DNA from: a virus
Reading direction: 5' to 3' (one strand)
DNA length: 57,089 nt
IMG/VR virus record: IMGVR_UViG_3300025087_001783
Location: 1-57,089 of that record
The notes under the pieces: generated by a model
Databases searched by the model: none
What the model saw: only the letters and a program-made list of their open reading frames with translations
What the model was told of the DNA's origin: nothing
Translations under genes and position numbers: made by a program
Part shown: in pieces, positions 11,114-54,473 of the stretch
Layout of the letters: each line of letters opens with the position of its first letter
Position numbering within the stretch: position 1 is the stretch's first letter

Positions 11114-11120
11114 GTGTAGA

Positions 11121-15337: not shown

Positions 15338-15900
15338 TCACTGCTGGTCGTATTAGAGAGCTTGCCAAGCAGGCTCCAAATGAAAAAGTTTATCCAGATC
15401 AGCGATTCCCGCCGTCGATATACTACCGATTTATGAAGTTGCTGGCTGCGGAGATACAACCTACGAATAGCGTGGTATTAGGAGTGTGCGGAGGTGGGGA
15501 CTGTTTACATCTGGCGCAGGGATGGCCCGCTGGACAGGTGTATGGCGTAGATTATGCCAGGGATCACGTCGATAACATTAAGCATGTCGAGGCAACGTTC
15601 CCAAATTTTCATTTTCTGTGGAACGACTCGATTGATGTCATTAAATCCTTTGACAAGTTTAGCGGTCCGTGCGTGGATATATTGTTTATTGATACAATTC
15701 ATACCTATGAGCGTACCATTAGAGAATTTTATGCGTGGCAGCGTGTCCTCAATCCTGGTGCAGTGGTTATGCTGGATGATCTGTACAGGGATGGCATGCT
15801 TGCAGCATGGACAGATTTGCCTGGAGCAAAAATCCGATTGGACGAGTTGCATCTAGGTGGAAGTCCTACAGATGGCGGGTTTGGGGTGATATTGCTATGA
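15334..15900 (+). CDS. Class I SAM-dependent methyltransferase, paralog 4
   Basis: A 188-aa protein with SVVLGVCGGGDCLHLA at motif I, where the usual acidic residue is replaced by VVLG; YGVDYARD at motif II; DILFIDTIHTYERTIREF (about 115-130) and VMLDDLYRDG. ATGA overlaps on both sides. Same family as its neighbours by motif order. Confidence 0.68.
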   Translation: MITAGRIRELAKQAPNEKVYPDQRFPPSIYYRFMKLLAAEIQPTNSVVLGVCGGGDCLHLAQGWPAGQVYGVDYARDHVDNIKHVEATFPNFHFLWNDSIDVIKSFDKFSGPCVDILFIDTIHTYERTIREFYAWQRVLNPGAVVMLDDLYRDGMLAAWTDLPGAKIRLDELHLGGSPTDGGFGVILL

Positions 15901-16472
15901 GTGATGCACAAAACGTTGTTCAGCATTGTATAAAGATTGGTCTAGAGTACGATCCTCCCAAAGAGATATTGGAGTATTGTGGTGCGTATTATTCGCCGTA
16001 TTACAACTTTGCGTACGCGATGATGTGCGCTGCTGGAACGTATTGGCCATCGGTGGTTGCTGTAGAGTTGGGAGTTGAAAAAGCGCGCTGCTCTTTCAGT
16101 ATGCTGCAGTACGAAAATGGTATCGTGATCGGATTAGATACCCATCCAACTGTTGAAGCCAGCAGGCTGGCATTGCGAGAGCCACGCTTCATCTACCTCA
16201 ATCAACCCAGCTCCCAGGTTCCAGTCAATATACTTGAGCACAAGCGCATTTCCATTTTGCATATCGATACAGAGCATTCTTACGGCATGGCGAAAATGGA
16301 GTTTGAGGCATATTTCCCGTATTTGACGAATCCTGCATTTGTGTTGTTTGATGATATTCACGCCATGAACGACGATGTGTTGAAGTTCGTCAAGGAGCTG
16401 CCGTACTATAAAGTTATTGAAGATCGCTTGCATCCAATTTGTGGTTATGCTGTTGTGGCTGTGGAGACGTAA
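15897..16472 (+). CDS. Class I SAM-dependent methyltransferase, paralog 5
   Basis: ATG 15897 overlaps the previous stop, giving 191 aa. Motif I AVELGVEKARCSFSM lacks the usual glycine-rich turn; motif II is VIGLDTHPT; then ILHIDTEHSYGMAKMEFEAY and VLFDDIHAMND. The degenerate SAM loop suggests it may bind a different cofactor or be a non-catalytic partner. Last gene of the tandem set before a transferase. Confidence 0.62.
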   Translation: MSDAQNVVQHCIKIGLEYDPPKEILEYCGAYYSPYYNFAYAMMCAAGTYWPSVVAVELGVEKARCSFSMLQYENGIVIGLDTHPTVEASRLALREPRFIYLNQPSSQVPVNILEHKRISILHIDTEHSYGMAKMEFEAYFPYLTNPAFVLFDDIHAMNDDVLKFVKELPYYKVIEDRLHPICGYAVVAVET

Positions 16473-16473
16473 A

Positions 16474-17031
16474 ATGATTGTAAGTATTGTGACCGGCACC
16501 TATAATCGTCTCCAGCATTTGCACAACATGATCTACAGCGCGCGCAACTCAATTGGGTTGGGTATGGAGTATGAGATTATCGTTGTAGACGGTGGTAGTA
16601 CGGATGGCACGCTTGAATGGTGCAAGGAGCAGCCCGATGTCAAGCTGATTGAGCATGGGGAGCTGCGTGGCGCTGTGAAGGCATTCAATGATGGAGCGCG
16701 TGCCTCCAGTGGCTTGTATGTCATATTGGCGAATGACGATATCGTTTTTATTAACGAGAGTATCATGACAGCCGTGGCCTTTATGCAGGACAATCCTGGT
16801 GTTGGTATCGGCTGTTTTTATCAGGATCGTTACAAGCAGGATTGGCATGTTGAGCAAATGCCGGCAGTAATAAACGGACGCCAGATTAGCGCGTATTATG
16901 GGCAGGTTTGTATCGTACAACGTTGGTTGGGGGATCTTGTAGGTTGGTGGGGGGACTATTTGCGCACATATGGCGGGGATAATGAGCTGAGCTGCAATGT
17001 GCTGGAGGCAGGTTATAAGTACTGCCGATAG
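16474..17031 (+). CDS. GT-A (family 2) glycosyltransferase, N-terminal half of a frame-disrupted gene
   Basis: 185 aa from ATG 16474. It opens MIVSIVTGTYNRLQHLHNMI, followed by VVDGGSTDGTLEW (about 33-45) and YVILANDDIVF (about 80-90), all classic family-2 segments. The reading stops at TAG 17029 right after GYKYCR. The other frame continues without a gap as PIECAQIHDTTPMDGLRKINND, the expected continuation of a family-2 domain. So this and the next gene were one gene, or still are through a -1 shift near 17025. Confidence 0.72.
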   Translation: MIVSIVTGTYNRLQHLHNMIYSARNSIGLGMEYEIIVVDGGSTDGTLEWCKEQPDVKLIEHGELRGAVKAFNDGARASSGLYVILANDDIVFINESIMTAVAFMQDNPGVGIGCFYQDRYKQDWHVEQMPAVINGRQISAYYGQVCIVQRWLGDLVGWWGDYLRTYGGDNELSCNVLEAGYKYCR

Positions 17032-17060
17032 AATGTGCGCAGATACATGATACAACTCCC

Positions 17061-18149
17061 ATGGATGGTTTGCGCAAGATCAATAATGATAATGTTATAA
17101 AACGTGGTAAGCACCCTGACACGGAGGCATTCGTCAAGCATTGGACACATGCAAATGGTAGAAAGGGTGCTATCATCAATTCCAAGCCGATACCTCGTCA
17201 GGATGTGCAACGCTTTCGGCGCGTTCTGTACGCACCAATTTACGAGCCAGGATACAGCATACAGAAGAAATCCAAACGAGGTTTGCGTGATGCACTGGCG
17301 AGGCGCATGTTGGTTGTGGAATGTGATTATGTTGCACAAACGTTCGATTATGTGTTCGACCTGGCGAACGCGTTTGATCCGGACCTGATTATCACTCAAA
17401 TTCAAAGCGTTGACATCAAGCTGAATGCTGAGACTATCAGGGAGTTACGCCACGAGCACCCAGGCGCCAAGTTTGTAAACTGGAATGGCGATTATCATCC
17501 TGAGCATCTATATAGTCCGGATTATATAGCTTTGCTTAAGCAGTTTGACTTGAATGGCTTTTGCACAACAGCAATTCAAGACAGGTACGAAGCGGAGGGA
17601 GTGCGTTGGTTCTACTGGCAAATAGGTTGCGAAGAGACCAACGTTGCATCTGATAAGTTTACACCCTGTTACGATTTGTTATTCTTGGCAAATGGTTATA
17701 GTGATGACCGCAAGCATCTGGTTGACATATTGCGTAGGCAGCGATTTACAACAGGTTTGTACGGTATTTGGCCTCCAGAGTATGGATCTAGAGGTAACAA
17801 CCTGTACGATTTTGACGGTGGTGCCAGGTTGTATCAGGCAAGCAAATTGGCACTGAGCGATAGCCAGTGGCCAGATGTGAACGGATATTGCAGTAACAGG
17901 CTGTTCCAGGCTATGGAAGCTGGTGCGTGCTTATTGCAGCAGCGGTTTGCAGGTATGGAGGAGTTATTAGGATTGGTGGATGGCGAGAATATCGTGGTTT
18001 GGGACAAGGCTGAAGATCTGCTGGATAGGATAGATTATTACTTGCACCATGACGAGGAGCGTCGCACTATAGCCAGGAATGCACGTGAGTTTATGCGTGC
18101 ACATCATAGCTTTGATGTGCGAGTGCAGGAATTGCTGGCGTATGTATAA
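17061..18149 (+). CDS. GT-B glycosyltransferase (Glyco_trans_1_2/CgeB-like), C-terminal half of a frame-disrupted gene
   Basis: 362 aa from ATG 17061. This ATG has no Shine-Dalgarno, and the frame is already meaningful from 17025. The end of the protein carries the CgeB-like signature CSNRLFQAMEAGACLLQQ, then MEELLGLVDGENIVVWDKAEDL and HHDEERRTIARNAREF. The first half has a GT-B N-domain pattern (FDPDLIITQIQS, FVNWNGDYHPEHL). Two-domain GT2 plus CgeB-like proteins are common in glycan loci, which supports a single ancestral protein of about 558 aa. Whether both halves are made separately is unknown. Confidence 0.7.
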   Translation: MDGLRKINNDNVIKRGKHPDTEAFVKHWTHANGRKGAIINSKPIPRQDVQRFRRVLYAPIYEPGYSIQKKSKRGLRDALARRMLVVECDYVAQTFDYVFDLANAFDPDLIITQIQSVDIKLNAETIRELRHEHPGAKFVNWNGDYHPEHLYSPDYIALLKQFDLNGFCTTAIQDRYEAEGVRWFYWQIGCEETNVASDKFTPCYDLLFLANGYSDDRKHLVDILRRQRFTTGLYGIWPPEYGSRGNNLYDFDGGARLYQASKLALSDSQWPDVNGYCSNRLFQAMEAGACLLQQRFAGMEELLGLVDGENIVVWDKAEDLLDRIDYYLHHDEERRTIARNAREFMRAHHSFDVRVQELLAYV

Positions 18150-19413
18150 CGTCACGATTATCATCCCAGTTTATTGTACCAATCAGCAGGGATTGAATTG
18201 GCTGGATGAGTGTTTGCAGAGTGCATTGGCACAGGAATGCGCAGTGGTGGCATATGACGATGGATCTACGGTAAATGTTAGGGAGGTGCTAAGTAAATAT
18301 AATATAACATATTCCTATCGCGACGAGCACCTGGGTGTTAGTGCAGCAAGAAATGCTTGTGCTGAGCTTGCAAAAACATCGTTGATATTACCATTAGATT
18401 GTGATGACAGGCTCAAACCTGGTGCTGTAGAGAAACTGGTGTATAGATGGGCAGGTGTGCCAGTATACCCAGACCTGGAGAAATTTGGTAAGGTCCGTGA
18501 TCCGCATTACAGGTTGATGGATTTTCATTGTGATCACGTGCTAAACTATGTAGGATTTACAAGCGTGAACGTGCTGCACTCTGTAGAGCAGCATAAGGCA
18601 ATTGGTGGTTGGGACACCAGCCTGGATTTTTATGAAGATGGCGAGTATAATGCCAGGCTGTTGGGAACATATTGTGGACTTCATCTTGCGGAGCCGTTGG
18701 TTGAATACAGGATACATGACCACCAGCGCACGCAACAATATAAGAAGCAAGCAGCCCAGTACACAGCTGTCTTGCTCAATAAAATTAGGAGTTATGAAAT
18801 GGCCTGTAGAACATGTGGTGGAAAGCGCAGAACGGGTTTTGGCAACGATCCTACTCGTCCTGCTGCACAGACTAGTACACTCAATGCAACAGCTACTACG
18901 CGCGGTCCAATTGTTCAGGTGTCAGTTGGGGAAAGCTGGCGATCCTTGCCAAGCGAGTTCGAGGGCAGGATTTTGGCGCGTTATGTTGGCGGCAAGGGCA
19001 AAGGTCGGCATTACTATCAGGGTAAAATCTCTAACATTCCATATCGTGTTACTCATGGAGACGTGCTGTACGCGGACGCGCGGGATGTTCGGGATGCCGA
19101 GAACACTGCTGACACTCGCCAGCTGGTGCGTATCAAGCAGGAAGAGCTGGCGTCCAAGCCAGAGCCGGCAAAGGTTGTAGAGCCGGAGCTTCCCCAACTT
19201 GTTGAAGAGAAAGTTGAGCCGACTCCTGAACCTACTGCTCCAGTTGTCAAGGAGCTGCCTGAATTGAGCAACATGACAGTGGATGACGTGCTGGCACTGG
19301 ATTTGAGCGAACATGATGTACCAGCAATGATCCGTTCCGAGGCACGCGGCAAGAATCGCAAGGTTGTTATCAGCTACCTGAAGAACAAGGTGAAGCGTGG
19401 TGGAGCTAAATGA
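18142..19413 (+). CDS. GT-A glycosyltransferase fused to a phage structural-type domain
   Basis: ATG 18142 overlaps the previous stop; 423 aa. Residues 1-215 are a family-2 transferase: NVTIIIPVYCTNQQGLNWL, VVAYDDGSTVN, GVSAARNACAEL, LPLDCDDRLKPGA and GGWDTSLDFYEDGEYNARL. From residue 220 it changes character: MACRTCGGKRR, an Ala/Thr/Pro-rich stretch, a small beta-rich segment (RYVGGKGKGRHYYQGK) and a Pro/Glu-rich linker to a helical end (LSNMTVDDVLALDLSEHD). The second part resembles short phage head proteins that follow the capsid gene. The fusion joins the glycan cassette to the head module. Confidence 0.65.
   Translation: MYNVTIIIPVYCTNQQGLNWLDECLQSALAQECAVVAYDDGSTVNVREVLSKYNITYSYRDEHLGVSAARNACAELAKTSLILPLDCDDRLKPGAVEKLVYRWAGVPVYPDLEKFGKVRDPHYRLMDFHCDHVLNYVGFTSVNVLHSVEQHKAIGGWDTSLDFYEDGEYNARLLGTYCGLHLAEPLVEYRIHDHQRTQQYKKQAAQYTAVLLNKIRSYEMACRTCGGKRRTGFGNDPTRPAAQTSTLNATATTRGPIVQVSVGESWRSLPSEFEGRILARYVGGKGKGRHYYQGKISNIPYRVTHGDVLYADARDVRDAENTADTRQLVRIKQEELASKPEPAKVVEPELPQLVEEKVEPTPEPTAPVVKELPELSNMTVDDVLALDLSEHDVPAMIRSEARGKNRKVVISYLKNKVKRGGAK
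18799..19413 (+). CDS. Possible separate head protein from an internal start
   Basis: An in-frame ATG at 18799 (MACRTCGGKRR) has AGGAG at 18787-18791, seven bases upstream, exactly where the transferase domain ends. It would yield a 204-aa protein with a CxxC pair near its N-terminus and a charged C-terminal helix. This looks like the original, free head gene, with the upstream transferase gene later running into it. Independent translation is inferred from the RBS only. Confidence 0.5.
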   Translation: MACRTCGGKRRTGFGNDPTRPAAQTSTLNATATTRGPIVQVSVGESWRSLPSEFEGRILARYVGGKGKGRHYYQGKISNIPYRVTHGDVLYADARDVRDAENTADTRQLVRIKQEELASKPEPAKVVEPELPQLVEEKVEPTPEPTAPVVKELPELSNMTVDDVLALDLSEHDVPAMIRSEARGKNRKVVISYLKNKVKRGGAK

Positions 19414-26152: not shown

Positions 26153-26364
26153 TTAAGCATATTGTAAAATCGTTTGATTTGTTGGTTAAGCTCATGGATG
26201 CAGCAAATATACTGCAAGTGCCATATGAAGTCACGAAAACGTATATTGACAAGAAACGTGGTGATGGATCTGTTGATGGAGTTGCACAATACACGATTAC
26301 TATCCACTCAAACGAGAATGAGACTCGTGAATTGCAGGAATCAATTTGGGACGGTATGCGATGA
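26149..26364 (+). CDS. Small protein of unknown function
   Basis: 71 aa, overlapping the primase stop and the dCTP deaminase start (ATGA at each end). An amphipathic helix at the N-terminus is followed by a strand-rich segment ([11 protein letters not shown]). No motif is recognised. Its place in the operon points to a replication or nucleotide role only by association. Confidence 0.6.
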
Positions 26365-26963
26365 TTGGTCCAATGAGCGACAAGCGTATCAGGGAATTAT
26401 GCACTGGCGACAATCCAATGATCGAGCCATTTGTTGATGAGAATGTGCGAGAAATCAGTGGTGCATCGACTGGAAATTACAGGTTTGCTAAGAAAGTTAT
26501 ATCCTATGGGTTGTCCTCGTATGGGTATGATATGCGTTTGGCAACCGATTTCAAGATAGTTACCAGCTTGTATGCTGGAATTATCGATCCGAAGAACATT
26601 GATGCCTTGCACATGCATGAAGAGCATTCAGAGGACTATATTATCATTCCACCAAATGCGTTTGCTTTGGCTCACACGGTTGAATACTGGCGCATCCCTC
26701 GCAACGTGGTAGGTATCGTGCTTGGGAAGAGCACGTACGCGCGCTGCGGGTTGATCGCAAATGTCACAGCCCTGGAGCCAGGCTGGGAGGGGCATCTGAC
26801 GATTGAATTATCAAACAGTGCTCCCCTGCCGCTGAAGGTGTATGTTGGCGAGGGAATTGCACAGTGCATCCTGTTCGAAGCCTCCGAAGAGTGCGAAGTG
26901 TCCTACGCTGACAAGCAGGGAAAATACCAGGCGCAAACAGGTATTACCCTGCCGCGATTGTGA
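26361..26963 (+). CDS. dcd: dCTP deaminase / dUTPase-family trimeric enzyme
   Basis: 200 aa from ATG 26361 (ATGA overlap); ATG 26373 is an alternative. Dcd signatures: [25 protein letters not shown] with catalytic-type Glu149, and a QAQTG end that closes the active site. Length fits Dcd (about 190 aa). The enzyme converts dCTP to dUTP (or dUMP in bifunctional forms), feeding thymidine or modified-thymidine synthesis. That suits a phage that also encodes candidate hydroxymethyluracil-processing enzymes. Confidence 0.88.
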
Positions 26964-32195: not shown

Positions 32196-33254
32196 ATGGC
32201 CTCCGCGATTAAAGACAACCCGTTCTCCGCAGATTATCATTTACTGTATTTTGCTGAATTTGTGAAAGCTGTGCAGGATGCTGGTGGAACCACACCGCAT
32301 ATGCTGATGACAGTCGAGTCCGCAAGGCGCCAAAAGCACACGGATGAAAAACTGTGGTGGGCAGGTTGTTATGCGTTCGTGTACAACTACGCCAGCGCGG
32401 AGGTTTTATACAACCACTGGCGTCCAGGAGAATGGACTGTGGACGAACTATCTAAGTGGATTGGCGAAAACTGGAAGGGCATTAAGTTTCGCAAGGAGCG
32501 CAAGGCTGCTAGGAGCGTGGCGCGCTTGACAACTTGCATGCAAACGTACTATGATTTTATGGAGCGCGTTCCGGATCGTGATTGGTTCCGCAGCAAAAAT
32601 GGGTATTCCGGTGGGGAGCGTTATAACGCCGCGTTTGAGGATATATGCAACAATGTAAAGTACATGGGCAGATATATTGCAATCCGGTGGTTGGAGGTTG
32701 TGCGGCGCGTGTTTGACATCGACATGGAGATGCCTGACTTGCGGTCCAGGGATGGCGATCATCCTCGCAAGGCATTGGCACTGATGTATCCGGAGCATCT
32801 GACTGCACTGATGGGTGGCAACTCTGATGCTGAAATTGCTGAAACGGATGAGGTTGTTGAGATTTGCAAAGAGGACTTGCGCAAGCTGTATGGCGTCAAA
32901 ACGGATTATTACACCATGCAGTCGCTGCTGTGCGAGTATAAGCAGAGCTGCCTTGGGCGCAGACAATATCCTGGCAAGTCCGTTGACAGCGAGTTGTCAT
33001 ACTTCGAAAAGGTTTGCACGGATTGGTGGGGGGATGCGTTTCGTGAGCAGACAATCATGTACGACGTTCGTAGAACGATATTTCCATCCTACATGCTTGG
33101 AGAGGTCCAGGGTTGGAGTGGAGTACGCGAGGAGCTGGGTAATGTGCTGGTTGACCATGGCTATACTTGGAGTGACAGGGTGTATAATTATGTCAAAACC
33201 AAGGATTTTTCCAATCCTGTGTTGCGGTCTAGCAAGGTTACGAGTATTCTATGA
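32196..33254 (+). CDS. Candidate DNA-base hypermodification enzyme (ADDT / aGPT-Pplase-like)
   Basis: A 352-aa alpha-helical protein, Trp/Tyr-rich, directly followed by the phosphatase, kinase and 5-hmdU-kinase helical genes. The segment SLLCEYKQSCLGRRQYPGKS followed by VDSELSY resembles, from memory, the LC.YK...GRRYxG...D pattern of amino acid:DNA transferases and the alpha-glutamyl/putrescinyl thymine pyrophosphorylase families of hypermodifying phages. If so, it would attach an amino acid or polyamine to activated hydroxymethyluracil in DNA. This is an inference from context and partial motif, not a firm family call. Confidence 0.45.
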   Translation: MASAIKDNPFSADYHLLYFAEFVKAVQDAGGTTPHMLMTVESARRQKHTDEKLWWAGCYAFVYNYASAEVLYNHWRPGEWTVDELSKWIGENWKGIKFRKERKAARSVARLTTCMQTYYDFMERVPDRDWFRSKNGYSGGERYNAAFEDICNNVKYMGRYIAIRWLEVVRRVFDIDMEMPDLRSRDGDHPRKALALMYPEHLTALMGGNSDAEIAETDEVVEICKEDLRKLYGVKTDYYTMQSLLCEYKQSCLGRRQYPGKSVDSELSYFEKVCTDWWGDAFREQTIMYDVRRTIFPSYMLGEVQGWSGVREELGNVLVDHGYTWSDRVYNYVKTKDFSNPVLRSSKVTSIL

Positions 33255-33685
33255 GAGCCACACCTATTTTACCAGGGAAATTATACCAGGGTCCAGAGTT
33301 CGGTAACAGGCCTTTGCAGGAGAAATTATCATTAATCAGGGATAATAGGATTGATGTCGTAATTAATGTTTACAAGAATCCTGATGTCAAGTTGCGAGAG
33401 AGGATGTACGAGTATATCTATTTCCCTATGTCGGATGGAAAAACATTCAATGCACTGGAGCTGATGGATCTTGCGGAGCGCGCTGCGGATTTGCTCAGGG
33501 CAGGTTATGTTATTTATACCCACTGCCATGCTGGCAGGAATCGCAGTGGATTCCTGAACGCGTTGATTGTTAGGGACTATTGCAATATTCCCGGTCATCA
33601 GGCATTGCAGCATGTCAGGCAAATGCGACCGCGCGCTGTTGACAACGAGTATTTTGAGTGGTTCTTAGAGGAGATTGATGCATGA
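33251..33685 (+). CDS. Dual-specificity-type phosphatase
   Basis: A 144-aa protein with the cysteine phosphatase loop HCHAGRNRS (C92, R98, S99; CX5R) and a candidate general acid in FPMSDGKTF (about residue 60). It starts within the previous stop (ATGA) and overlaps the kinase gene after it. Its place between two predicted DNA-modification enzymes suggests it removes a phosphate from a nucleotide or DNA base intermediate; a protein phosphatase role cannot be excluded. Confidence 0.8.
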   Translation: MRATPILPGKLYQGPEFGNRPLQEKLSLIRDNRIDVVINVYKNPDVKLRERMYEYIYFPMSDGKTFNALELMDLAERAADLLRAGYVIYTHCHAGRNRSGFLNALIVRDYCNIPGHQALQHVRQMRPRAVDNEYFEWFLEEIDA

Positions 33686-34287
33686 TCATACAGTTGCGCG
33701 GCACATCAGGATCAGGCAAAACCTATACCGCTCGATCGTTTATGGAGTGCTATGCTCCCGACATTCAAATTTGTGATATTGGCGGCAAGACTGTTGCGCA
33801 TTGCGTGTATTGGGAGATGCAACCTGTATACTTGTTGGGCAGTTACAAGAATGTTTGTGGGGGATGCGATAGCATCAGCAGTCAGGACATGGTTTGCAGC
33901 CTGGTGCGGCATTTCAGCCAGTTTGGGCATGTAATTTTCGAGGGCCTGATAATGTCGCACTTATACGCGCGCTATGCAGCGTTGGCAGATGAGATGTCAG
34001 AAGCTGGGGATGTATTTACGTTTGCGTTTATGGATACTCCACTAGAGTTGTGCTTGGAGCGTATCGTACAGCGCAGGATTACCAAAGGTAATTATAAGGA
34101 GCTTAATCCTGACAATACGATTGGCAAGTACGAATCTACGCATGCTGTGGCAGAAAAGCTCAGGAAAGCTGGGTACAACGTTGTTTGGATCAATCATAAG
34201 AAAACTCCTGTTACACAGCTGATCAGTTTGCTGCATAAAGACAACATACCATTTGAGCAGTCCTATCGGGAGGAAAGTTTCCGATGA
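33682..34287 (+). CDS. P-loop kinase, candidate 5-hydroxymethyl-dU DNA kinase catalytic subunit
   Basis: A 201-aa protein with Walker A GTSGSGKT (7-14), a lid-type segment RIVQRRITKGNYKEL and a typical AAA_33/zeta-like kinase core. ATGA overlaps both sides; the next gene has the helical domain characteristic of phage 5-hmdU DNA kinases. Those kinases phosphorylate hydroxymethyluracil already in DNA, activating it for further modification. Here kinase and helical parts are separate proteins that probably form one complex. A nucleotide kinase is an alternative. Confidence 0.65.
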   Translation: MIIQLRGTSGSGKTYTARSFMECYAPDIQICDIGGKTVAHCVYWEMQPVYLLGSYKNVCGGCDSISSQDMVCSLVRHFSQFGHVIFEGLIMSHLYARYAALADEMSEAGDVFTFAFMDTPLELCLERIVQRRITKGNYKELNPDNTIGKYESTHAVAEKLRKAGYNVVWINHKKTPVTQLISLLHKDNIPFEQSYREESFR

Positions 34288-35174
34288 AGCTGAAAGCGTC
34301 GCATGTTGCTAGATATTTTCAATTCTGCGCAGAACGGCATGCAATATATGCATGTAGGCAACGCGGCGATGAGTGGCCATGGACAACCAACGAAATCCTG
34401 AAAACATACAAGTTTACCAATGTATACAGAGAGTTAGACATTGGGACGGTATGGTTGCGAGAGAACATTCGTGGGCCGTATGCTGATGATCCGGAGCTGT
34501 TTTTCAATATTGCATTGTATCGCAGGTACAACTATTGGCCCATGGCTGAATGTATAGGATATGTTGATGTTTACGAGGAAGTGCTACAGCTTCCTGACAT
34601 AGCGCGCTCTTACAAAACGCACGGTGGGCAGGTGTTTACAGGTGCGCACATGATTAACTGCCCAAAACCGTTCAAAAGCAAGATCGACTACGTGTTTGAT
34701 ATTGGCGCCAAAGAGCTGTGGGAAAAGCGCAGGGGTATAGAGGATTGTCATTCATTGCAGGAAGCGTTCAACTGGCTGAAAACATTGGGAGGTTTTGGCC
34801 CATTTATTAGCTATGAGGTTGTTACAGATTTGCGTTGGACGCGCTATTTACAAGACGCTCCTGACATAAATACTTGGGCAAACCCTGGTCCTGGGGCACA
34901 GCGTGGTATATTGCGGTTGATGGACTACCCTATCAACAATCATGCAGGCCTCCCAAAGCTACCACCAGGGGTAAAGTGTCCTGGCAGCTTTATTGCTGCA
35001 ATGCAGGCACTGTTAGAAAAATCCAGGAGCGTTCTGCCTGATTGGATGCCGGCATTTGAATTAAGGGATGTGGAGCACAGCTTGTGCGAATTTGACAAGT
35101 ACGAGCGTGTCAGGACTGGCGAGGGTCGTCCAAGAAGCAAGTTCGTACCGCCACATTTACGCGATCAAGTTTAG
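34284..35174 (+). CDS. 5-hmdU DNA kinase helical-domain protein (HMUDK_hel-like)
   Basis: A 296-aa protein with the signature of this family: AERHAIYACRQRG, WPWTTNEILKTYKFTNVYRE, a later FGPFISYEVVTDLRW, ANPGPGAQRG and VEHSLCEFDKYERVRTGEGR near the end. These blocks are conserved in proteins of phages with hypermodified thymine. In other phages the domain belongs to 5-hmdU DNA kinases; in this window the kinase core is the preceding gene. It probably binds the modified base in DNA. The last codons contain CAAGTTTAG. Confidence 0.75.
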   Translation: MKLKASHVARYFQFCAERHAIYACRQRGDEWPWTTNEILKTYKFTNVYRELDIGTVWLRENIRGPYADDPELFFNIALYRRYNYWPMAECIGYVDVYEEVLQLPDIARSYKTHGGQVFTGAHMINCPKPFKSKIDYVFDIGAKELWEKRRGIEDCHSLQEAFNWLKTLGGFGPFISYEVVTDLRWTRYLQDAPDINTWANPGPGAQRGILRLMDYPINNHAGLPKLPPGVKCPGSFIAAMQALLEKSRSVLPDWMPAFELRDVEHSLCEFDKYERVRTGEGRPRSKFVPPHLRDQV

Positions 35175-35180
35175 TTAAAT

Positions 35181-35465
35181 ATGAACACCAAGCAATATTA
35201 CCTAGAGCTGACAGATAAGGAAAAAGAAGACGCCAAGAATTTCCATAACGCTGTTGTTGCTGCGGTTGATAAGTTTGCGGCAACCTACGGATATATGCCA
35301 AGCTGTGTGTATATGCGCGAGGATCAGATAATTGATGGGTTTGTAATACCTGCGAAAGTTGCTCCGCAGCCGCCATACCATATCATGCTTGGCCCATATG
35401 TAATTGCTCGCACCCCTAAGATATTCATAGGAGTTAGAAATGGAAAACGAAATCACAAAAGCTAA
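35181..35465 (+). CDS. Small protein of unknown function
   Basis: 94 aa from ATG 35181, six bases after the previous stop. There is no Shine-Dalgarno (TTTAGTTAAAT precedes it), so translation may depend on coupling. The N-terminal helix is charged (LTDKEKEDAKNF); the C-terminal part ends basic. It overlaps the next gene by 26 bases. No family recognised. Confidence 0.5.
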   Translation: MNTKQYYLELTDKEKEDAKNFHNAVVAAVDKFAATYGYMPSCVYMREDQIIDGFVIPAKVAPQPPYHIMLGPYVIARTPKIFIGVRNGKRNHKS

Positions 35466-35877
35466 GACTCTTGAAGTCACTGCTGACGATTTGTACAAGG
35501 ATTTATCTGGAAAGGCTGGTGATCATGTCAATGATGTCAATGTGCTGATGTCATTGCTGCACAACCTACACGTTGCCAAGGAGCGAGTGTACAATTTATC
35601 ATTTTGCCGGAGAGGTCTGGTTGGAGTTTGGATGAACCTGGCTCGCAAGTATGACAGGATCGATGCCATGTCCTGCTCCGAAGACTATCGCAATTTTACC
35701 TATATTGACACGCTATTTGACACGGCTGCGTACGCGCTGAAGATGATTGATATCCTGCGCAAGATGTACCCAGAGGCATTTGACAAGTGGCTGGAGAACG
35801 TGTATTGCGAATACACTGGACATAGTATCACTCACGTTCGTAAGATACTGAATGGGGATGGAAATGAACAGCGATAA
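35440..35877 (+). CDS. Conserved phage-type protein, possibly DUF1599/nucleotide-modification associated
   Basis: 145 aa, with RBS ATAGGAG. The segment GVWMNLARKYDRID followed by YIDTLFDTAAYALKMIDIL resembles the pattern KxxRL ... DTL.DLANYAL of DUF1599/MazG-like proteins that occur beside nucleotide metabolism and DNA modification genes in phages. If right, it may act on nucleotides. The match is by eye only. Confidence 0.4.
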   Translation: MENEITKAKTLEVTADDLYKDLSGKAGDHVNDVNVLMSLLHNLHVAKERVYNLSFCRRGLVGVWMNLARKYDRIDAMSCSEDYRNFTYIDTLFDTAAYALKMIDILRKMYPEAFDKWLENVYCEYTGHSITHVRKILNGDGNEQR

Positions 35878-36053: not shown

Positions 36054-38609
36054 ATGAGCAATCCTTCTGAGACCAACGAGGTTTGCATAAAGTGTGGATT
36101 GTGGAAGGGATGCAAAACACCATTTATGCCCGCTCATGGCCCAGAGGATGCAAAGCTGACGATTGTAGGAGAGGCTCCTGGAGCACAGGAGGATGAGATT
36201 GGAATACCGTTTGTTGGACAGAGTGGGGAATTGTTGCGTAATGTATTGCGGGAGGTTGGTTTTGATCCTGAGAAGGATGTCAGATATACGAACGTCGTAC
36301 GTTGCAGGCCTCCGGACAATAAACTAGGTTCGAAGGCGATTATCAAAGCCTGTAGCCAATTTGCCCATCAAGAGCTGGCTGGCACCCCACAAGGGCAAAT
36401 TTGGTTGATGGGAGGCAGTGCTCTCATGGGGATTCTAGGAGAAGTTGGCATCACTGCTTGGAACGGGATAAAGGTAGAAAAGGGTGGAAATACCTTTGTC
36501 CCACTCTATCACCCTGCTTATATTCTGCGCAATATGAACATGCTGGACGAGTGGTTGGATGCCATGCTGAAGGCAGTAGATGGAGAAGAGGAGCGTAAGG
36601 GTTTTGAGCGCGTGATTATCAATACTGTGCAGGGCATGCTAGAGATGCAGCTGGACCTCGCGGAGTATGATGTTATCAGTTACGACACAGAGACCAGCGA
36701 TCTCAATCCATATGCTGAGTACAGCTTCGTACTGTCTGCCAGCTTTGCCAGGCCTGGACGCGCGTACGCATTTCCATTAGATCATCCAGAAACACCATGG
36801 TCTGTAGCTGAGCGGGAGCAGGTATATGATATATTATGCGATGTATTGATGTCGCATAACGGTCGTGTTGTTGGACACAATATCAAGTTTGACCAGCTGC
36901 ATACATTGGCTTATGCGGACATAGATTTTGCTGCTGGTGGGGACAGCATGCTTATCAGCCACTTGCTGGATAGTCGCAGAGGTATTCATGGATTGAAGCA
37001 TTTGGCAGGTATGCACCTAGGAATGTATGAGTATGAACAAGAACTATCTATTTATATTAACAGTCATCCAGAGGCAAACCCACATAAAGGTGGTTCGTAT
37101 GCTTTTGTACCTTTGGACATTTTGTTGCCATATGGTGCTATGGATGCAGAGGCCACGTTATTACTGGTTGAAAAGTTGTATGATAGTTTATCGGACGCGC
37201 AGCGGACGCTTTATGACGAGATGGTGATACCTGCCAGCAATGTACTGTGTCGTATGCAGAGTAATGGGTTGAATCTGGACACGTACATTGCAGCGCGTTA
37301 TGCTAAGATTTACAACTGGCGCCAGCATCGTTTGTACGAGGAGTTGCAAAACGATCCTAAGGTTCGTAGGATGGTCAAAAAACATGCTACGAACAAGAAA
37401 TGGAAATTCAACCCAAACTCGTCGTACCACTTGTCAGAGCTGTATTTTGAGCAGTATAAAATACCTGTTGTTGGAGAAACTCCAAAGGGCAGGCCGTCCA
37501 CAAGCGCGAAGCTGTACAAGAACCTTGAGGAAAGATTTCCAATATTACACAAAGTGCGATATTATAAGTTGCTGACAAAAATGCTTGGGACATACATTGA
37601 GCCTGTACAGGGGAAGTGGTTGTCAGCAGATGGTAGGGTGCGTTCTACATACTTGCTGCACGGGACTGTTACCGGCAGGCTTGCCTCTGAGCAGCCAAAT
37701 TTACAAAACATTCCCACACCCGAAAAAGAGCCAGGTACATTGCTGGAAACCTTGCCAATCAAGAATGTGTTTACTCATACCTACAAGGGTGGGTTGGTGA
37801 TGAGTGTTGACTATAGTGGTATGGAGCTGAGAGTATTTGCAAGCGTTGCAAAATGCATGTTGATGATATCTATTCACAAGAGCGGGCTGGATTTCCATAG
37901 AATGGTTGCAGCTTTGAGCTTGCGCATGATCAGCAAAAACGATATGCTGCAGGTGGATGATTGGGCATATGCAAAAGCACAATTCCAGCCAATCATAGGA
38001 CAGATAGACAAGCCGACGCGTTATGTTTACAAATGGACGAACTGGACATTATTGTACGGTGGCGACGAGTACACGTTGCACCGTATGTACGACGTGCCCA
38101 TTGAAGACGCGCAGGAAACCGTGCGTATGTATTATGACATGTTCCCAGAAGTGCTTGAGTACAGGGAAAGTTGTAGGGAGTTTGCTGAGGATCATGGCTA
38201 TATAGAGAGTCCGTTCGGGCGCAGGGCACAATTGCCGTACATCAATGACAGAGATAATGGAAAACGCAACAAGGCTGTGCGAGAAGCAGTCAATATGCCT
38301 GTGCAGTCAGCAGCCAGTGATACACTGTTGTGCGCTGCTATTATCATTAATAGGTATATGCAAGAGCAATGCATGAAGTCTATGCTTGTAAATACTGTGC
38401 ACGACAGCTTGATGATTGACGCGCATCCAAAGGAAATAGAGCATTTGGCATATCTGTGCAAGACTCGTATGGAGAATATCAGTAAGTACGCGGCAGTGCA
38501 AATGCCAAATGTGGATTTCAGCTGGCTTATAAGCCCGCTTAAGGCAGATGTAGATGTCGGCACCCATTATGGTGTCATGGAGGATATTGACGAATGGATG
38601 AAAAAGTAG
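36054..38609 (+). CDS. DNA polymerase I with N-terminal uracil-DNA glycosylase domain
   Basis: An 851-aa protein. Residues about 8-180 are a family-4-like UDG: CIKC (11-14), VGEAPGAQEDEIGIPFVGQSG, NVVRCRPP, a further Cys in ACSQ (possible iron-sulphur ligands) and PLYHPAYIL. Then a 3'-5' exonuclease (DTETSD, D211/E213; GHNIKFD; YGAMDAEA) and a family A polymerase: VDYSGMELR as motif A, RYVYKWTNWTLLYG as the O-helix (K660, W664), and VHDS (783-785) as motif C. The O-helix Phe is Trp and the usual HDE is HDS. A UDG-PolA fusion occurs in the hydroxymethyluracil phage SPO1, in line with the modification genes upstream. Start ATG 36054 after GAAGCGTGAT. Confidence 0.9.
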   Translation: MSNPSETNEVCIKCGLWKGCKTPFMPAHGPEDAKLTIVGEAPGAQEDEIGIPFVGQSGELLRNVLREVGFDPEKDVRYTNVVRCRPPDNKLGSKAIIKACSQFAHQELAGTPQGQIWLMGGSALMGILGEVGITAWNGIKVEKGGNTFVPLYHPAYILRNMNMLDEWLDAMLKAVDGEEERKGFERVIINTVQGMLEMQLDLAEYDVISYDTETSDLNPYAEYSFVLSASFARPGRAYAFPLDHPETPWSVAEREQVYDILCDVLMSHNGRVVGHNIKFDQLHTLAYADIDFAAGGDSMLISHLLDSRRGIHGLKHLAGMHLGMYEYEQELSIYINSHPEANPHKGGSYAFVPLDILLPYGAMDAEATLLLVEKLYDSLSDAQRTLYDEMVIPASNVLCRMQSNGLNLDTYIAARYAKIYNWRQHRLYEELQNDPKVRRMVKKHATNKKWKFNPNSSYHLSELYFEQYKIPVVGETPKGRPSTSAKLYKNLEERFPILHKVRYYKLLTKMLGTYIEPVQGKWLSADGRVRSTYLLHGTVTGRLASEQPNLQNIPTPEKEPGTLLETLPIKNVFTHTYKGGLVMSVDYSGMELRVFASVAKCMLMISIHKSGLDFHRMVAALSLRMISKNDMLQVDDWAYAKAQFQPIIGQIDKPTRYVYKWTNWTLLYGGDEYTLHRMYDVPIEDAQETVRMYYDMFPEVLEYRESCREFAEDHGYIESPFGRRAQLPYINDRDNGKRNKAVREAVNMPVQSAASDTLLCAAIIINRYMQEQCMKSMLVNTVHDSLMIDAHPKEIEHLAYLCKTRMENISKYAAVQMPNVDFSWLISPLKADVDVGTHYGVMEDIDEWMKK

Positions 38610-45884: not shown

Positions 45885-46403
45885 ATGTCTATTGTGTTCA
45901 AAGCTATCAAGCCTTCAAGATTACGACAGGATGCCATGCGTTTGGCCATGCTGAGTTTGATGCACAGGGTTGGGCGGGAAATGAAAAAGGATTTTGAGGC
46001 AACACAGGACACATGGCAACCAGAAGACAAGGCAAAGTTTGATTCCTTGATTAGTATGTCAGGTGGTGGTCCAACAGTTGTTGTAGCACCTAACGAAAAT
46101 GGTGATGTGTGGACGATAGTTAATAACGGTGCACCTCCGCATGACATACCGCTTGAGCCAAAGACAGATGGATTCCTGGTTTTCCAAACAGGTTATAAAC
46201 CCAAAACCGTACCAGGAGTGATCGGCAGTGTACAGGGTGGAAAATTTGGAGGTTATACCAAGCGCAAAAGCGTGCATCATCCAGGGCACGAAGGCAGGAA
46301 ATTTACAGTTGCAATACAGAAAAAGTGGCTCCCGAAATTCAAGCGCATGGCAGAAGACACCATGCGTGAGGTTGCCAAAAAGTCCGGTCATGGAGTGCGT
46401 TGA
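45885..46403 (+). CDS. Neck/tail-completion protein (HK97 gp10-like)
   Basis: A 172-aa protein with RBS TTTGGAG. Basic and Gly-rich end: HHPGHEGRKFT, KKWLPKFKRMAEDTMREV. A small phage protein with a PGxxGRxF segment, immediately before tail genes, is typical of HK97 gp10-type head-tail joining or tail-terminator proteins. It would sit at the neck. Confidence 0.55.
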   Translation: MSIVFKAIKPSRLRQDAMRLAMLSLMHRVGREMKKDFEATQDTWQPEDKAKFDSLISMSGGGPTVVVAPNENGDVWTIVNNGAPPHDIPLEPKTDGFLVFQTGYKPKTVPGVIGSVQGGKFGGYTKRKSVHHPGHEGRKFTVAIQKKWLPKFKRMAEDTMREVAKKSGHGVR

Positions 46404-46756
46404 TGGATGTAAAAATTGTTGGCAGGGAAAATGGAAAAGTACTTGTTGAGTGGCGCGAGGATGGATGTTTGCGTCGTGGCATAGTCCCAGAGGAGGTTGT
46501 GAATGGAGAAGTCATAGACGATGAGTTGCTGTCGTTGGCAATTACTTACGGCATCGATTTCGAGTTCTTGTTAGAGCAAGCCTTGGACAATGTCACACCG
46601 CAAGCCATTACCTGCCGGCTCCATAATGCAGGTATTTGGACTTATGAAGACATGCGCGCTAATCCTACGGTGGTGCGTGGGGTGATCATGGCCGCGTATG
46701 GCGTTGATTTTCAAACACTGTATAGAATTGCAGAAGAAAACAAGACCCGGAGGTAA
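46403..46756 (+). CDS. Small tail-module protein
   Basis: ATG 46403 (a TTG 46400 also possible); 117 aa. A beta-rich start (MDVKIVGRENGKVLVEW) is followed by helices (ELLSLAITYGIDFEFLLEQAL). Its position between the neck and tail tube genes suggests a tail terminator or joining role. No family recognised. Confidence 0.5.
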   Translation: MDVKIVGRENGKVLVEWREDGCLRRGIVPEEVVNGEVIDDELLSLAITYGIDFEFLLEQALDNVTPQAITCRLHNAGIWTYEDMRANPTVVRGVIMAAYGVDFQTLYRIAEENKTRR

Positions 46757-46758
46757 AC

Positions 46759-48258
46759 ATGGGCGATTTTGCATTAGCAGGTGAGGGTGCCATCTGGGTA
46801 CAAAAAGATGGCCCGAACACGGAACCAAAATATATGGGATGTCACGAAACTGGTGACATCTCCGAGCCGCGTGGCGATGTCAAGCTGTACTACTGCCCTG
46901 ATCCCAACCAGATCAACAAGTGGGTAGTGTCTGACAGCGGTCAGGGTGCGCCAGGGCTTGTTACTACCAGTATTGCCACCAGGCTGCGGGCAGTCAAGGA
47001 CGAGCTGGACTCCATGGTTTGTCCAGGAGCCATCTATGTCCATCATGTCAGCTGTGGCAAGCCAAACGTTTTCGACGCGTATGACTACACGTTCCTGCTC
47101 CGGCGACCGCGCGTCACTCAGCGTACATTATCAAAACTGACTGCCAGGGTGCCTGATAGTCAGGATGAGAGTCTGAAGGCATACGAAATCAGCGCTGAGA
47201 GCATTGACGATCTGTTCAAATTCACGCTTACCAGTGTTGAGAATTCGCAGGTTGACAGCTTGCTGGACGTTACCAGTTGCGACGCGGAGCAGTGTGCTGG
47301 CGACTGCGGTGATGCAGTGCGCCTGGGAACTAACGTGTATGGCGCCAGTGGTACGCGCTCCGGCTCTCCTGTCAACATGAGCGAGGTTATCAACAGCGAT
47401 GATGGTGGCGGCACGTGGTCAGCGCTGGCACAATATCCATTCCTGGCTGGCGAGGTTATTGCATCCATCCGCTGCATGAAAATCGATGACGAGACTACTC
47501 GTATCATCGTGGCGCGTGGTACGATTGATGCAGCCAACCCGATGGAAATCGCGTACAGTGACGACGGTGGGGCAACCTGGACACACGTTGATGTTGGTAG
47601 TACCAACGGGCAGTATGCTCTTGGTCCCAAGGCACTGTTCGTCCTGGATTACTACAATATCTGGCTGTGCACCAGCGGTGGTTACATCTATTTCTCTAGC
47701 GATGGCGGTGCTAGCTGGACCGCTCAGACCAGCGGTGGCTTGACCACCCAGGATCTGCGCGCTATTGAAATGGCAGATGAGAAAAACGGATGGGCTGTTG
47801 GCGACAGCAATGCTATCCTCAAAACCACCACGCAGGATGCCAACGGGCAAAATATTTGGGCAGTGGTGACTGGTCCTGCGGGACAGGCTGCTGACAATAT
47901 TTACTCTGTGGCAGTGTTTAGCCAGTATCGTTGCTGGATCACCTACAGCGACAACGAACTGTGGTACACTCGTGATGGCGGTGACAACTGGAGCCAGCGT
48001 ACTTATGGCGCAGTGACTGGTGGAAGCGTGTCATACATCAGCTTTTACGACGAGTGGGTTGGCGTGCTGGTGTACAACTCCGCAGCATCTGTTGGTACAC
48101 TGTATGTAACCATCAACGGTGGCTATACTTGGAAGGCGCTGAGCACCCCAACTAATGCTGGGCTGAACGCGGCCATCATGCCGACGCCGACCCTGCTGTA
48201 TGCGGTTGGAAATGTGTACAGTGGTTCTGCCATGATCATTCGCGGCAGCGGTGGATAA
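46759..48258 (+). CDS. Major tail (tube) protein with a C-terminal BNR/Asp-box beta-propeller
   Basis: A 499-aa protein followed by a strong terminator. Residues about 1-200 are a tail-tube-size domain. Residues about 205-499 contain repeated Asp-boxes: SDDGGGTW, SDDGGATW, SSDGGASW, TRDGGDNW and TINGGYTW, the blades of a sialidase-type or Ycf48-like propeller. Such a domain would decorate the outside of the tail and could bind host glycans. The tube assignment is by position just before the tail chaperone genes; the propeller is clear from sequence. Confidence 0.7.
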   Translation: MGDFALAGEGAIWVQKDGPNTEPKYMGCHETGDISEPRGDVKLYYCPDPNQINKWVVSDSGQGAPGLVTTSIATRLRAVKDELDSMVCPGAIYVHHVSCGKPNVFDAYDYTFLLRRPRVTQRTLSKLTARVPDSQDESLKAYEISAESIDDLFKFTLTSVENSQVDSLLDVTSCDAEQCAGDCGDAVRLGTNVYGASGTRSGSPVNMSEVINSDDGGGTWSALAQYPFLAGEVIASIRCMKIDDETTRIIVARGTIDAANPMEIAYSDDGGATWTHVDVGSTNGQYALGPKALFVLDYYNIWLCTSGGYIYFSSDGGASWTAQTSGGLTTQDLRAIEMADEKNGWAVGDSNAILKTTTQDANGQNIWAVVTGPAGQAADNIYSVAVFSQYRCWITYSDNELWYTRDGGDNWSQRTYGAVTGGSVSYISFYDEWVGVLVYNSAASVGTLYVTINGGYTWKALSTPTNAGLNAAIMPTPTLLYAVGNVYSGSAMIIRGSGG

Positions 48259-48281
48259 GTAGTAGTACGCTCGGGTTTTAT

Positions 48282-48345
48282 ACCAGTCATTGGGATGGAT
48301 GCATTGGGACGTCTCCCAGTGGCGTCCCAGTGACTGGTTTTATAT
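48282..48345 (+). terminator. Rho-independent terminator after the tail tube gene
   Basis: A 14-bp stem (48282-48295 with 48325-48338, one T-G pair) closes a loop that can form a smaller second stem, followed by tttat. It lies 24 bases after the tail tube stop and 20 bases before the chaperone gene, allowing high tube expression relative to downstream genes. Confidence 0.75.
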
Positions 48346-48366
48346 TAGGAGAGGAGCAGTAAGGAA

Positions 48367-49014
48367 ATGAAGGGATACAATAAAAAATCGAATAATGGAA
48401 ATAAGGGGAATCAGCCAAAGACCAAGCGCGTGTTTCATACTACATCTACCGGCAAAACTGTGGAAATCGTTGGTATTGATCCAATGCTGCTTGACAGCAT
48501 CAGGGAAAGCATCGATTGGCCAGAGCATCCTCAATACAGCATCAAGATTGGCACGTCTGAGGAATGGCACGATCTCGATGAGGAAGTTGTCAAGCAGGAG
48601 GTTGAAGCTGGTAACATAGACCTGGCCCAGGAGTATCAGGCATTGCTGGATGGACACAAGCGCGCGCTCGTGGATGCCAATGCACTGCTCAATACGCGTG
48701 TCACACGTGCTATCCTGACAAAAGGTATCAAGGTTGATGTTGAAAATGACGAGGACTGGGCTGACACCCAGGAGTTCCTCGGCGTCGGCGCTGGAAAGAA
48801 CAAGCTGCAGCGCAAATACGATTACATTGTGTCGCAGGTTATTGGTATTGACACTGACTTATACGATCTAATGGAAAAAGTTATGGCACATACAGGTGTC
48901 CCACAGGAGCATCTGGACACTGCCAGGAGCATGTTTCGGGATCCGGTGGACGAAGGGAAAGAAAAGAACACCACTGGCGAAGCTGCCAAAGAAACAGGGC
49001 AATTGGGAGTATAA
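48367..49014 (+). CDS. Tail assembly chaperone (lambda gpG-like, short form)
   Basis: A 215-aa protein between tail tube and tape measure, the standard position for gpG-like chaperones. It starts basic (MKGYNKKSNNGNKG) and ends acidic/polar (DEGKEKNTTGEAAKETGQLGV). RBS AGGAGAGGAGC. The stop at 49014 is overlapped by an open frame continuing to 49201, so a longer shifted product is expected. Confidence 0.75.
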   Translation: MKGYNKKSNNGNKGNQPKTKRVFHTTSTGKTVEIVGIDPMLLDSIRESIDWPEHPQYSIKIGTSEEWHDLDEEVVKQEVEAGNIDLAQEYQALLDGHKRALVDANALLNTRVTRAILTKGIKVDVENDEDWADTQEFLGVGAGKNKLQRKYDYIVSQVIGIDTDLYDLMEKVMAHTGVPQEHLDTARSMFRDPVDEGKEKNTTGEAAKETGQLGV

Positions 49015-49201
49015 CGCCAGTTTTGCATTGCTGCACACAGTCTTTGAATGGAAAAGGTTGCCATCGGAATTTGGTTTGTGTAAGCCGGACGAGGATTTGG
49101 TAATGATGATGGCATACAGTTCTGCAATTGAGGAGATGAAATCGTACGAGGCAATGGTTGCTGAGGAAGAGGCAGAACTGCGAAACGCTAGAGGTGCATG
49201 A
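48367..49201 (+). CDS. Tail assembly chaperone frameshift product (gpGT-like)
   Basis: A second open frame overlaps the end of the chaperone gene and continues as LPKKQGNWEYNASFALLHTV ... SSAIEEMKSYEAMVAEEEAE, with no start signal of its own, stopping at 49199-49201 over the tape measure ATG. In most siphoviruses this part is reached by ribosomal frameshifting. The two frames here differ by +1 or -2, not the -1 usual in lambda; an A/G-rich stretch (gggaaagaaaag, about 48957-48968) is one candidate slip region. The exact site is unknown. Confidence 0.65.
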
Positions 49202-52200
49202 TGGAAGAAGTTGGTGTACAAGCTGTAATGAACACTGGCAGGTTCGATGCCGGTGTGAAATCGTACATTGCAGGTTTGGAAAATATGCGTATGCGAACAT
49301 TAGCGTTCGCAGTTACGGTTGGTAACCTCGCATCCAGAGCAATAGAAACGCTTGTACAAAAGCTGTATTCGTTCCTGCGTGGTGCTGCCGATGTTGCAGC
49401 ACGTGCGCAGTCATTGAGTTATGTGTTACAGATTGTTGGGCAGCGAGCAGGTTATACTGTAGAACAATTGGATGGGTATGTAGAGGCCTTACGTCAGACT
49501 GGTATTCAGACTGACGAGGCCTCTTCAGCCATCGTTCAGTTTATCAAAAATCAGCTGGATCTGACGCAAGTTACAAAGCTGGCGCGTGTTGCGCAAGATG
49601 CTGCTGTTATTGGTAATGTAAACTCCTCAGAGGCATTCAACAGAATTATTTATGGTATGACAACATACCAGACTGAGATCTTGCGTGGTATTGGCATACA
49701 GATACGCATGGATGATGCCATGAAAAAGTATGCTGAGACTATCGATAAGACAGCAAGTTCGTTGACAAACGCAGAGCGCACGCAAGCAATTATGAACGCC
49801 ATCCTCGAAGAGGGTGAGAAGATTGCTGGCTCTTATGAAGCAGCCATGCAAACGCCAGGAAAACAACTCAGCTCTTTGTCACGTGATATCTATGAGTTGA
49901 CGCGCGTTGCTGGCGAGCCGTTCTTGGTTGCGTTTGCTAACATTGTTGGTATTATGCGTGAAGTTGCTCAGGCAATGCGTAAGTTGTTAGAAGAGGGCGG
50001 TGCTTTGCATGGAGTGATGGTTGCGTTGGGTGGCGCGCTTGCCGCACTAACAGGAATATTGCGCGACAATGTTTCAGCTTGGTTGAAGGTTGTAACAGGT
50101 GCAGCCGATTTTTCATCAATCGTATCTAGTGCATTTGATACGGTTGCTGGCGGTATGAGCAGGGCTGCTAGGAATGTTGGCAAAACGCTTGATGGTACAT
50201 CTCAAGATTTTGATGAGATGGCAAGGCGCATGACAGAAGCTGGCGCGGCTGTTGCCAGGAGCGTTGAAGAAACCCACAAGACCACTGCTGAAGAGTTTAT
50301 TGATATGGCTGCAGACGCTGCAGATTGGGGTGCTAACATTGTCATTAGCTTGGCAAACGGCATTATAGCAGGTGCCACAGCTGTTATCAATGCCATGGCT
50401 TACATCTACCAGATTATTGCCAGCCTGTTGATGCCAGGTTCTCCTCCTAAACTACTGCCTGATATTGATAAATGGGGTGCTGCAGCGATAACTGTATACA
50501 TGGAAGGTTGGCGTAATGCCGACTTCTCTGTGTTCAAGGATATTTCCAATATCGTCAGCAGCTTTTTGCGGTCGTTGGGTGATAATGATATTGCAGAAAA
50601 GGATGTTATTCCAACGATCCTTGGCTCACGCGCTGCAATTATGGATACCATCAATTTAGTCAGGGCAACTGGCAAAGTCACTGATGACATGCTGTCCAAT
50701 TTGATGAGCAAACTTGGGCCAGTGTCTGACGAGTTTAGTGCCTTTATCAAGAATACATTGATGCAAGAGGCAGCATCTAAGAGACTGGCTGACGCTCAAA
50801 AACGCTTGAATGACGTCACGATGTTCTATGATGATGTATTACGAGAGCTGAACGCACAGCTTGCAGATGCATCTGATACCTATGATGAGAACAAGCGTTT
50901 GGTGGAAATTGAAGAGGCTATGGCATCGGGTTTGCTGACGCAAAGCGAGATGGCAGACCTGTCAAATGAGCGACGTAAGATTCTGCTGCGCCAGCAAATA
51001 CGAGATGTTGAGGCGCTGAAGGATACAGCAGTTGCTGCTGAGGAGGAGAAGGTTGAAGCTGCTGCCGATGAAGTAAACGCGATAGCAATGCAAATTGCTG
51101 CACAAAAAGAGCTGATTAATGTTCAGATAGAGCAAAACGAGCTGATTAAGCAGCAGATTGCATTGATGGAGCGTTTGGCAGAATCCGCAAAGCGTGGAGG
51201 TGGAGGAGGTGGAGGAGGTGGTCAAGAACTGCCTATACCTGCTGGTGGAGGTGGCGGTGGTGATCTGAGTATTACTGATGCCATGTCAGATGCTATCAAA
51301 AAAGCTGAGCGCAGGATCCGTATCAGGTTGATGCTGATGTGGAAAAACATTGCCAGCAGTTTCAGAGAGAGCACTGCCCCGCTTACAGAGGCTTGGAACA
51401 ATATACAGGAAAAGTTCTCTGTTATATTTGATCCTATCAAAGAAATTGCCATTAATGCATTTAACGCTATTGGAAATGCACTGTCGTATGTTTGGACACA
51501 GTATATTATGCCAATTGTTAATGGCATTATTGATCTTTTCCAATGGCAGTTACCAGAGGCAACATCTGTATGGCAAGATGTGCTGGCAAATACTTTTGCG
51601 CCAGCCATTGAAAAGATTTGGTTGGCCATACAAGAAAATCTTATGCCTATATTGGCAGAGTTGAAGGCATGGCTGGATACCAATCTGCCGATTGCTATTG
51701 AAGTTGCTAGTGCATATTGGAAAGAAGTATTGTGGCCAGCAATCAGCGAGTTGATGACGTACATATACGAAACGGTGGTGCCGTTATTAGCAGATCTGGT
51801 TGTTTGGTTGATAGAGCAGATTCCAGTTGCGTTGCAAACAGCCAGTGATTACTGGACAGACGTATTGCAACCAGCACTAGAAGCTGTGTGGGATTTCATG
51901 TCCACAAAAGTCATCCCGACTGTTGCTGATATTGTCAATTGGTTGGCAGTAAATGTTCCTGCTGCAATTAGCACATCCAGTGATTTTTGGACTGGAACGT
52001 TGCAACCTGCTATGCAAAGCGTTTGGGATTTTATTGATACATATTTGCTGCCAATATTTAGTGTGGTTATCGATATTGTTGAGATAACTCTTGGTATTGC
52101 ACTTGAAAATTGTGCAGTATCGTGGGGTATTGTAGTTGCTGCCATGATTGGTGTGCGCAACTACATTCAAGAAGATCTTGGTCCGAAAATTGAATGGCTT

Positions 52201-52713: not shown

Positions 52714-52717
52714 GCTC

Positions 52718-53653: not shown

Positions 53654-53668
53654 GATTGGAGGATTGTC

Positions 53669-54469: not shown

Positions 54470-54473
54470 TTAT

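Follow-up and report, generated by a model that had tools for sequence, protein, structure and literature searches.

The window examined here, a 57,089-nucleotide stretch of viral DNA (positions 1 to 57,089 of IMG/VR record IMGVR_UViG_3300025087_001783), carries a four-gene cassette of the known kind for thymine hypermodification, in a branch where a phosphatase is conserved. The observations comprise gene content, homology, intact catalytic motifs, conserved gene order, gene fusions, and branch specificity, and the pathway proposed below is the explanation that fits them best; from them we infer every reaction, above all the nucleophile and the substrate of the phosphatase. Judged from sequences and structural models, there is about an even chance that the operon encodes a variant M6/YuA/PaMx11-type pathway in which the dual-specificity phosphatase (DSP) would catalyse a later or parallel step dedicated to one transferase branch, ADDT-A.

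Genes of the cassette and its surroundings

Four open reading frames are present on the plus strand, and neighbours overlap by ATGA. The first (32196..33254) encodes a 352-aa ADDT / aGPT-Pplase2-type transferase of branch ADDT-A (PF18724, E=1e-14, 55 bits, cut-off 26). The second (33251..33685) encodes the 144-aa DSP (PF00782, DSPc, E=1e-9, 38.8 bits, cut-off 33.5), in which the sequence of the active-site loop, HCHAGRNRS with Cys92 and Arg98, lies at 33521..33547 on the same strand. The third (33682..34287) encodes a 201-aa P-loop 5-hmdU DNA kinase core (PF18748, HMUDK_HMUD1, E=2e-6, 28.0 bits, cut-off 27.0), and the fourth (34284..35174) a 296-aa HMUDK_hel / aGPT-Pplase1 protein (PF18723, E=1e-46). 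All four proteins score above the Pfam cut-offs, and the four overlapping genes and identities given in the first-pass annotation are thereby confirmed. Its assignment of the genes to thymine hypermodification is likewise supported, both by the ADDT, kinase, and HMUDK_hel profiles and by the fold match of the transferase to 8z2m.

A DNA polymerase A gene (36054..38609, plus strand; PF00476, 8e-72) lies just downstream of the cassette, and the order relative to polA is the same in the window, SN1, YuA, and Pam3. The polymerase has an N-terminal uracil-DNA-glycosylase-like domain (PF03167, 2e-25) that is conserved across the window's clade. Between cassette and polymerase, also on the plus strand, are a small 94-aa protein with no assigned function (35181..35465), noted by position only, and a protein related to Pam3_54 ('nucleotide modification'; 35440..35877; 50% identity over 28 aa). 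An ORF of 87-104 aa occupies the former position in loci L013 and L019, and homologues of the latter protein are found near polA in most related loci. A dCTP deaminase / dUTPase-like protein (26346..26963, plus strand; PF22769, 1e-34) is a plausible source of dUMP. No PLP, radical SAM, or FAD tailoring enzymes were found in the cassette or in the window ORFs scanned; the DSP occupies the slot. Elsewhere, the window contains an island (6930-19413) of glycosyltransferases, repeated Methyltransf_24 genes, RmlD and FdtA-like enzymes, and a GIY-YIG/NUMOD3 nuclease, as well as a single large ORF (34-3756) with 2H/LigT phosphoesterase, ADP-ribosyltransferase-like (DUF3990), and intein/HINT-like matches.

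A search of the rest of the genome for a dUMP hydroxymethylase had been proposed in the first-pass annotation. None was found in the 57 kb record, which has no PF00303 match, and the absence is explained by truncation. Two relatives of 76-79 kb that are syntenic with the window (G002 and G004) encode a thymidylate-synthase-family protein that matches the hydroxymethylase alignment; its gene lies 3-6 kb left of the match to the window's left-end gene. About 26 kb of G002, from a sigma-like gene to this left-end match, is missing from the window record and includes the thymidylate-synthase-family gene. Because the record stops short of this gene, the putative hydroxymethylase would lie just beyond the truncated left end, and its absence was rejected as evidence against the pathway. 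The tail module (45885-57089) is placed differently in the window than in G002 and G004, which reflects either a genuine rearrangement or an error of assembly. A Tet/JBP oxygenase was rejected as the hmU source in the window phage; Tet_JBP gave no match in the record, a weak negative, as the positive control gave no signal.

The AlphaFold (AF2) model of the window transferase is of moderate confidence (pLDDT 79). Its top match among solved structures is 8z2m, the PaMx11 gp46 5-PmdU glycinyltransferase (prob 1.00), and its first three solved matches are all this PaMx11 5-phosphomethyl-dU glycinyltransferase (8z2m/8z2n). The link is one of fold: no relative among solved structures was found with a sequence profile of the ADDT-A branch. 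A comparison of the ADDT-A and mixed ADDT alignments was left out of the evidence as circular, the window protein being in both. The window transferase is 31-64% identical to those of related cassettes; the closest, from L157 (64%), has a glycosyltransferase-like fragment upstream in place of the myo-inositol-1-phosphate synthase (MIPS) gene discussed below. No relatives of the ADDT-A alignment were found in GTDB genomes, and a profile comparison of HMUDK_hel with ADDT, run to look for common ancestry, returned a probability of 2%.

The window DSP has a complete HCX5RS loop (THCHAGRNRS) and an upstream-loop Asp, D62. Its AF2 model, built from 33 homologues, has a pLDDT of 97 and a TM of about 0.8 to solved DUSPs. 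The protein belongs to the dual-specificity phosphatase superfamily (PF00782) and is predicted to be active; the nearest folds are protein phosphatases, and the fold does not reveal the substrate. Relatives have a homologue in the same place (51% identical in G004), and the CX5R motif is retained by 56 of the 57 distinct homologues, with LC replacing HC in some (L013 and L099). Fusions of the phosphatase were found to the transferase in two lineages (L174/L177 and L207/L208) and to the kinase in one (L152/L186); Pfam confirmed one fusion of each type. The DSP-bearing loci are all metagenomic contigs, and tblastn with two different DSP queries gave no match in 50,697 phage records. Scans of viral contigs with the single window DSP or helical protein also gave no match, and alignments were needed to find relatives. 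One PHROG named thymidylate synthase, phrog_17568, matches the window DSP (5e-5), so that its name looks doubtful.

Two transferase branches and their partner genes

Loci were gathered by searches with alignments of the clade's polymerase, DSP, and ADDT and were scored with profiles built in this analysis; they come from IMG/VR, and the 46 ADDT-A loci counted below are distinct and have enough flanking sequence. A DSP was found next to or near the transferase in 40 of 46 ADDT-A loci, a set whose search seeds all carried a DSP, as compared to 0 of 17 loci in ADDT-B, the M6/PaMx11 branch (Fisher p=1e-10, which overstates the significance because the loci are related by descent). When ADDT-A was clustered at 50% identity, the DSP was present in 27 of the 31 clusters. 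This supports, and together with the fusions to both transferase and kinase extends, the initial suggestion that a phosphatase in the middle of such a cassette is new. PLP and M6-type radical SAM genes display the reverse pattern across the two branches. Cassettes also swap at one locus of syntenic phages, where M6-like replacements (G010 and G011) have no DSP. The helical-gene cassettes at this locus (G002 and G009) likewise have none, and no transferase or kinase was found in them. In G005, a DSP lies beside glycosyltransferase-like genes, and no kinase was found in its 40.7 kb. Tet/JBP is present in 11 other ADDT-A loci, three of which were checked by Pfam. As some ADDT-A cassettes carry Tet/JBP and not a hydroxymethylase, the hmU source differs among them, whereas the pairing of transferase and phosphatase is kept.

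The MIPS gene (PF01658, 4e-38) is present in 17 ADDT-A loci and in none of the ADDT-B loci. All 17 also have a DSP. Relatives of the window with MIPS include G001, G004, G007, L099, and L100. MIPS is often directly upstream of the transferase, as in the orders MIPS-ADDT-DSP-kinase-helical (L013), MIPS-methyltransferase-ADDT-DSP-kinase-helical (G004), and MIPS-ADDT-DSP::kinase (L152). Some of these loci add a methyltransferase (PF05050 or PF08241) or a SPASM radical SAM protein. The product of MIPS is an inositol phosphate, which makes a partner phosphatase a natural next step. The inositol link accounts for only part of the cases, since MIPS gave no match in the window record and is absent from 23 of the 40 DSP-bearing loci.

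Taken together, these partnerships permit a tentative joint reading, to which we give clearly less than an even chance: many uncultured phages may carry an inositol-thymine, and the window phage would belong to the same branch, possibly with another or a host-supplied phospho-nucleophile. Under the inositol-thymine reading, inositol phosphate would displace the phosphate of 5-phosphomethyl-dU and the DSP would then remove the second phosphate. The attached inositol could be O-methylated or oxidised by the methyltransferase or SPASM radical SAM protein of some cassettes. Judged by title and abstract, no paper in the literature search linked inositol to hmU or hypermodified phage DNA. No prior description of a DSP/MIPS branch was found in the literature searched, with Lee 2018, Lee 2022, Wen 2024, and Iyer 2013 outside its scope.

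The proposed pathway and the role of the phosphatase

In the proposed pathway, a thymidylate-synthase-family enzyme encoded outside the truncated record would hydroxymethylate dUMP, and hmdU would enter the DNA. The kinase, together with HMUDK_hel, would convert hmdU in DNA to 5-phosphomethyl-dU, and the ADDT-A transferase would replace this phosphate with a small nucleophile. In the ADDT-A branch the nucleophile would be a different one, probably phosphorylated, and the DSP would most likely strip phosphate from the nucleophile or from the finished DNA adduct. This phosphate may be that of an inositol phosphate in the MIPS-encoding phages and of a host-supplied or other phospho-compound in the window phage.

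The strongest competing role is close to that given in the first-pass annotation, in which the DSP removes phosphates from the base intermediate. Here the enzyme would reset unreacted 5-phosphomethyl-dU in DNA to hmdU, as proofreading or density control. Such a role is possible, and it agrees with the position of the DSP, which is nearly always near the pathway kinase or fused to the kinase (L152) or transferase (L174 and L207), and with its presence in cassettes both with and without MIPS. However, it is less likely, as the kinase product occurs in the M6/PaMx11 branch as well, none of whose 17 loci yielded a DSP, and as the DSP of G005 is present where no kinase was found. Since the kinase product is common to both branches and the DSP is confined to one, a branch-specific substrate fits better than a general reset.

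Two further roles are each considerably less probable. The DSP could act as a phosphatase on nucleotides and thereby shape the dNTP pool, for example by removing dTMP, like the HD-domain 5'-deoxynucleotidases of YuA, SN1, and Pam3. These HD proteins are encoded near the hydroxymethylase in YuA-like cassettes, and none is found beside the window cassette. However, many DSP cassettes also have an HD protein (L162, L168, L174, L183, L198, L204, and L207), and the fusion partners of the DSP are DNA-acting enzymes. Similarly, the DSP could be a protein phosphatase for host or phage proteins that merely travels with the operon. Protein-acting DUSPs are indeed its best fold matches, but the ATGA overlaps, the three lineages with fusions, and the tight linkage to one branch argue against a passenger.

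If the branch-specific role is right, thymine hypermodification in phages would include a dephosphorylation step and, very likely, a DNA substituent of a new class; the known ADDT family would also split in two, each branch having partner enzymes almost exclusively its own. The DSP would then be a candidate enzyme for taking phosphate off modified bases in DNA. One group has reported that first attempts to dephosphorylate phosphorylated hmU DNA with a phosphatase, and to glycosylate hmC DNA, were unsuccessful (PMC6457204).

The kinase core has an intact Walker A motif (GTSGSGKT) and is 61% identical to the kinases of G004 and G001. At E<=1e-5, HMUDK_hel matched 135 phage records; roughly half belong to YuA/M6-like Pseudomonas phages. 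The first-pass annotation had regarded the split between kinase core and helical protein as new, and this was not borne out: separate adjacent genes are the usual state. They are separate in YuA, the M6-like SN1, PaMx11, Sonora, and Pam3, a kinase fusion was found in 0 of 116 distinct helical proteins examined, and the two are listed as separate genes upstream of the polymerase gene in the SN1 cassette (PMC9476957). A newly split 5-hmdU kinase, to which the separate ORFs of the window might point, is therefore scarcely credible.

HMUDK_hel was also seen beside glycosyltransferase-like genes in two records where no kinase was found, G002 (L014/L111) and G005 (L019/L110); the G002 cassette also has a SPASM radical SAM gene. 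These two records suggest that HMUDK_hel is more than a kinase subunit. Many phage records label a hypermodification kinase 'terminase small subunit', as for YuA gp13 (NC_010116), PaMx11 gp49 (NC_028770), and Cr30 gp114 (NC_025422). PHROG 800 (phrog_800), which also matches the window kinase (6e-19), is perhaps the source of this misnaming.

Comparison with known systems

The modified base of Pseudomonas phage M6 is 5-NedU. The cassette of M6, YuA, and Sphaerotilus phage SN1 resembles that of the window in having ADDT and a separate kinase and HMUDK_hel upstream of polymerase A (PMC9476957). M6-like cassettes differ in containing a PLP enzyme, a radical SAM protein, Nmad5, and a hydroxymethylase, with no phosphatase, whereas the window carries the DSP instead, and its record contains no hydroxymethylase. 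Pseudomonas phage PaMx11, of the glycine branch, shares the fold and family of the transferase. Its kinase and helical protein are 36-39% identical to those of the window (tblastn), and its transferase about 16%. Unlike the window, PaMx11 has no DSP and carries an FAD oxidoreductase (gp47) and an acetyltransferase in the slot of the window's DSP.

The closest cultured relatives of the window transferase (29% identity over 222 aa) are in the JBP-type cassettes of Gordonia and Rhodococcus phages (Wooper and Tonitrus). These also have a 5-hmU kinase but differ from the window in having a Tet/JBP oxygenase and no DSP. In Caulobacter phage Cr30, an ADDT-like protein (gp123, 52.6 bits), MIPS (gp121), and a P-loop kinase of the L152 type (gp114) are encoded within about 6 kb. 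No DSP was found anywhere in the Cr30 genome, and no DNA chemistry of matching kind was found for Cr30 in the literature searched. Near its MIPS and kinase, gp118 (L160 8865-9254) displays, by eye, a DxDG motif close to the N-terminus, which suggests a putative HAD-type phosphatase in this DSP-less phage. Because Cr30 is in culture and encodes a transferase, an inositol synthase, and a kinase, it offers a direct experimental entry and a testable proxy for this branch.
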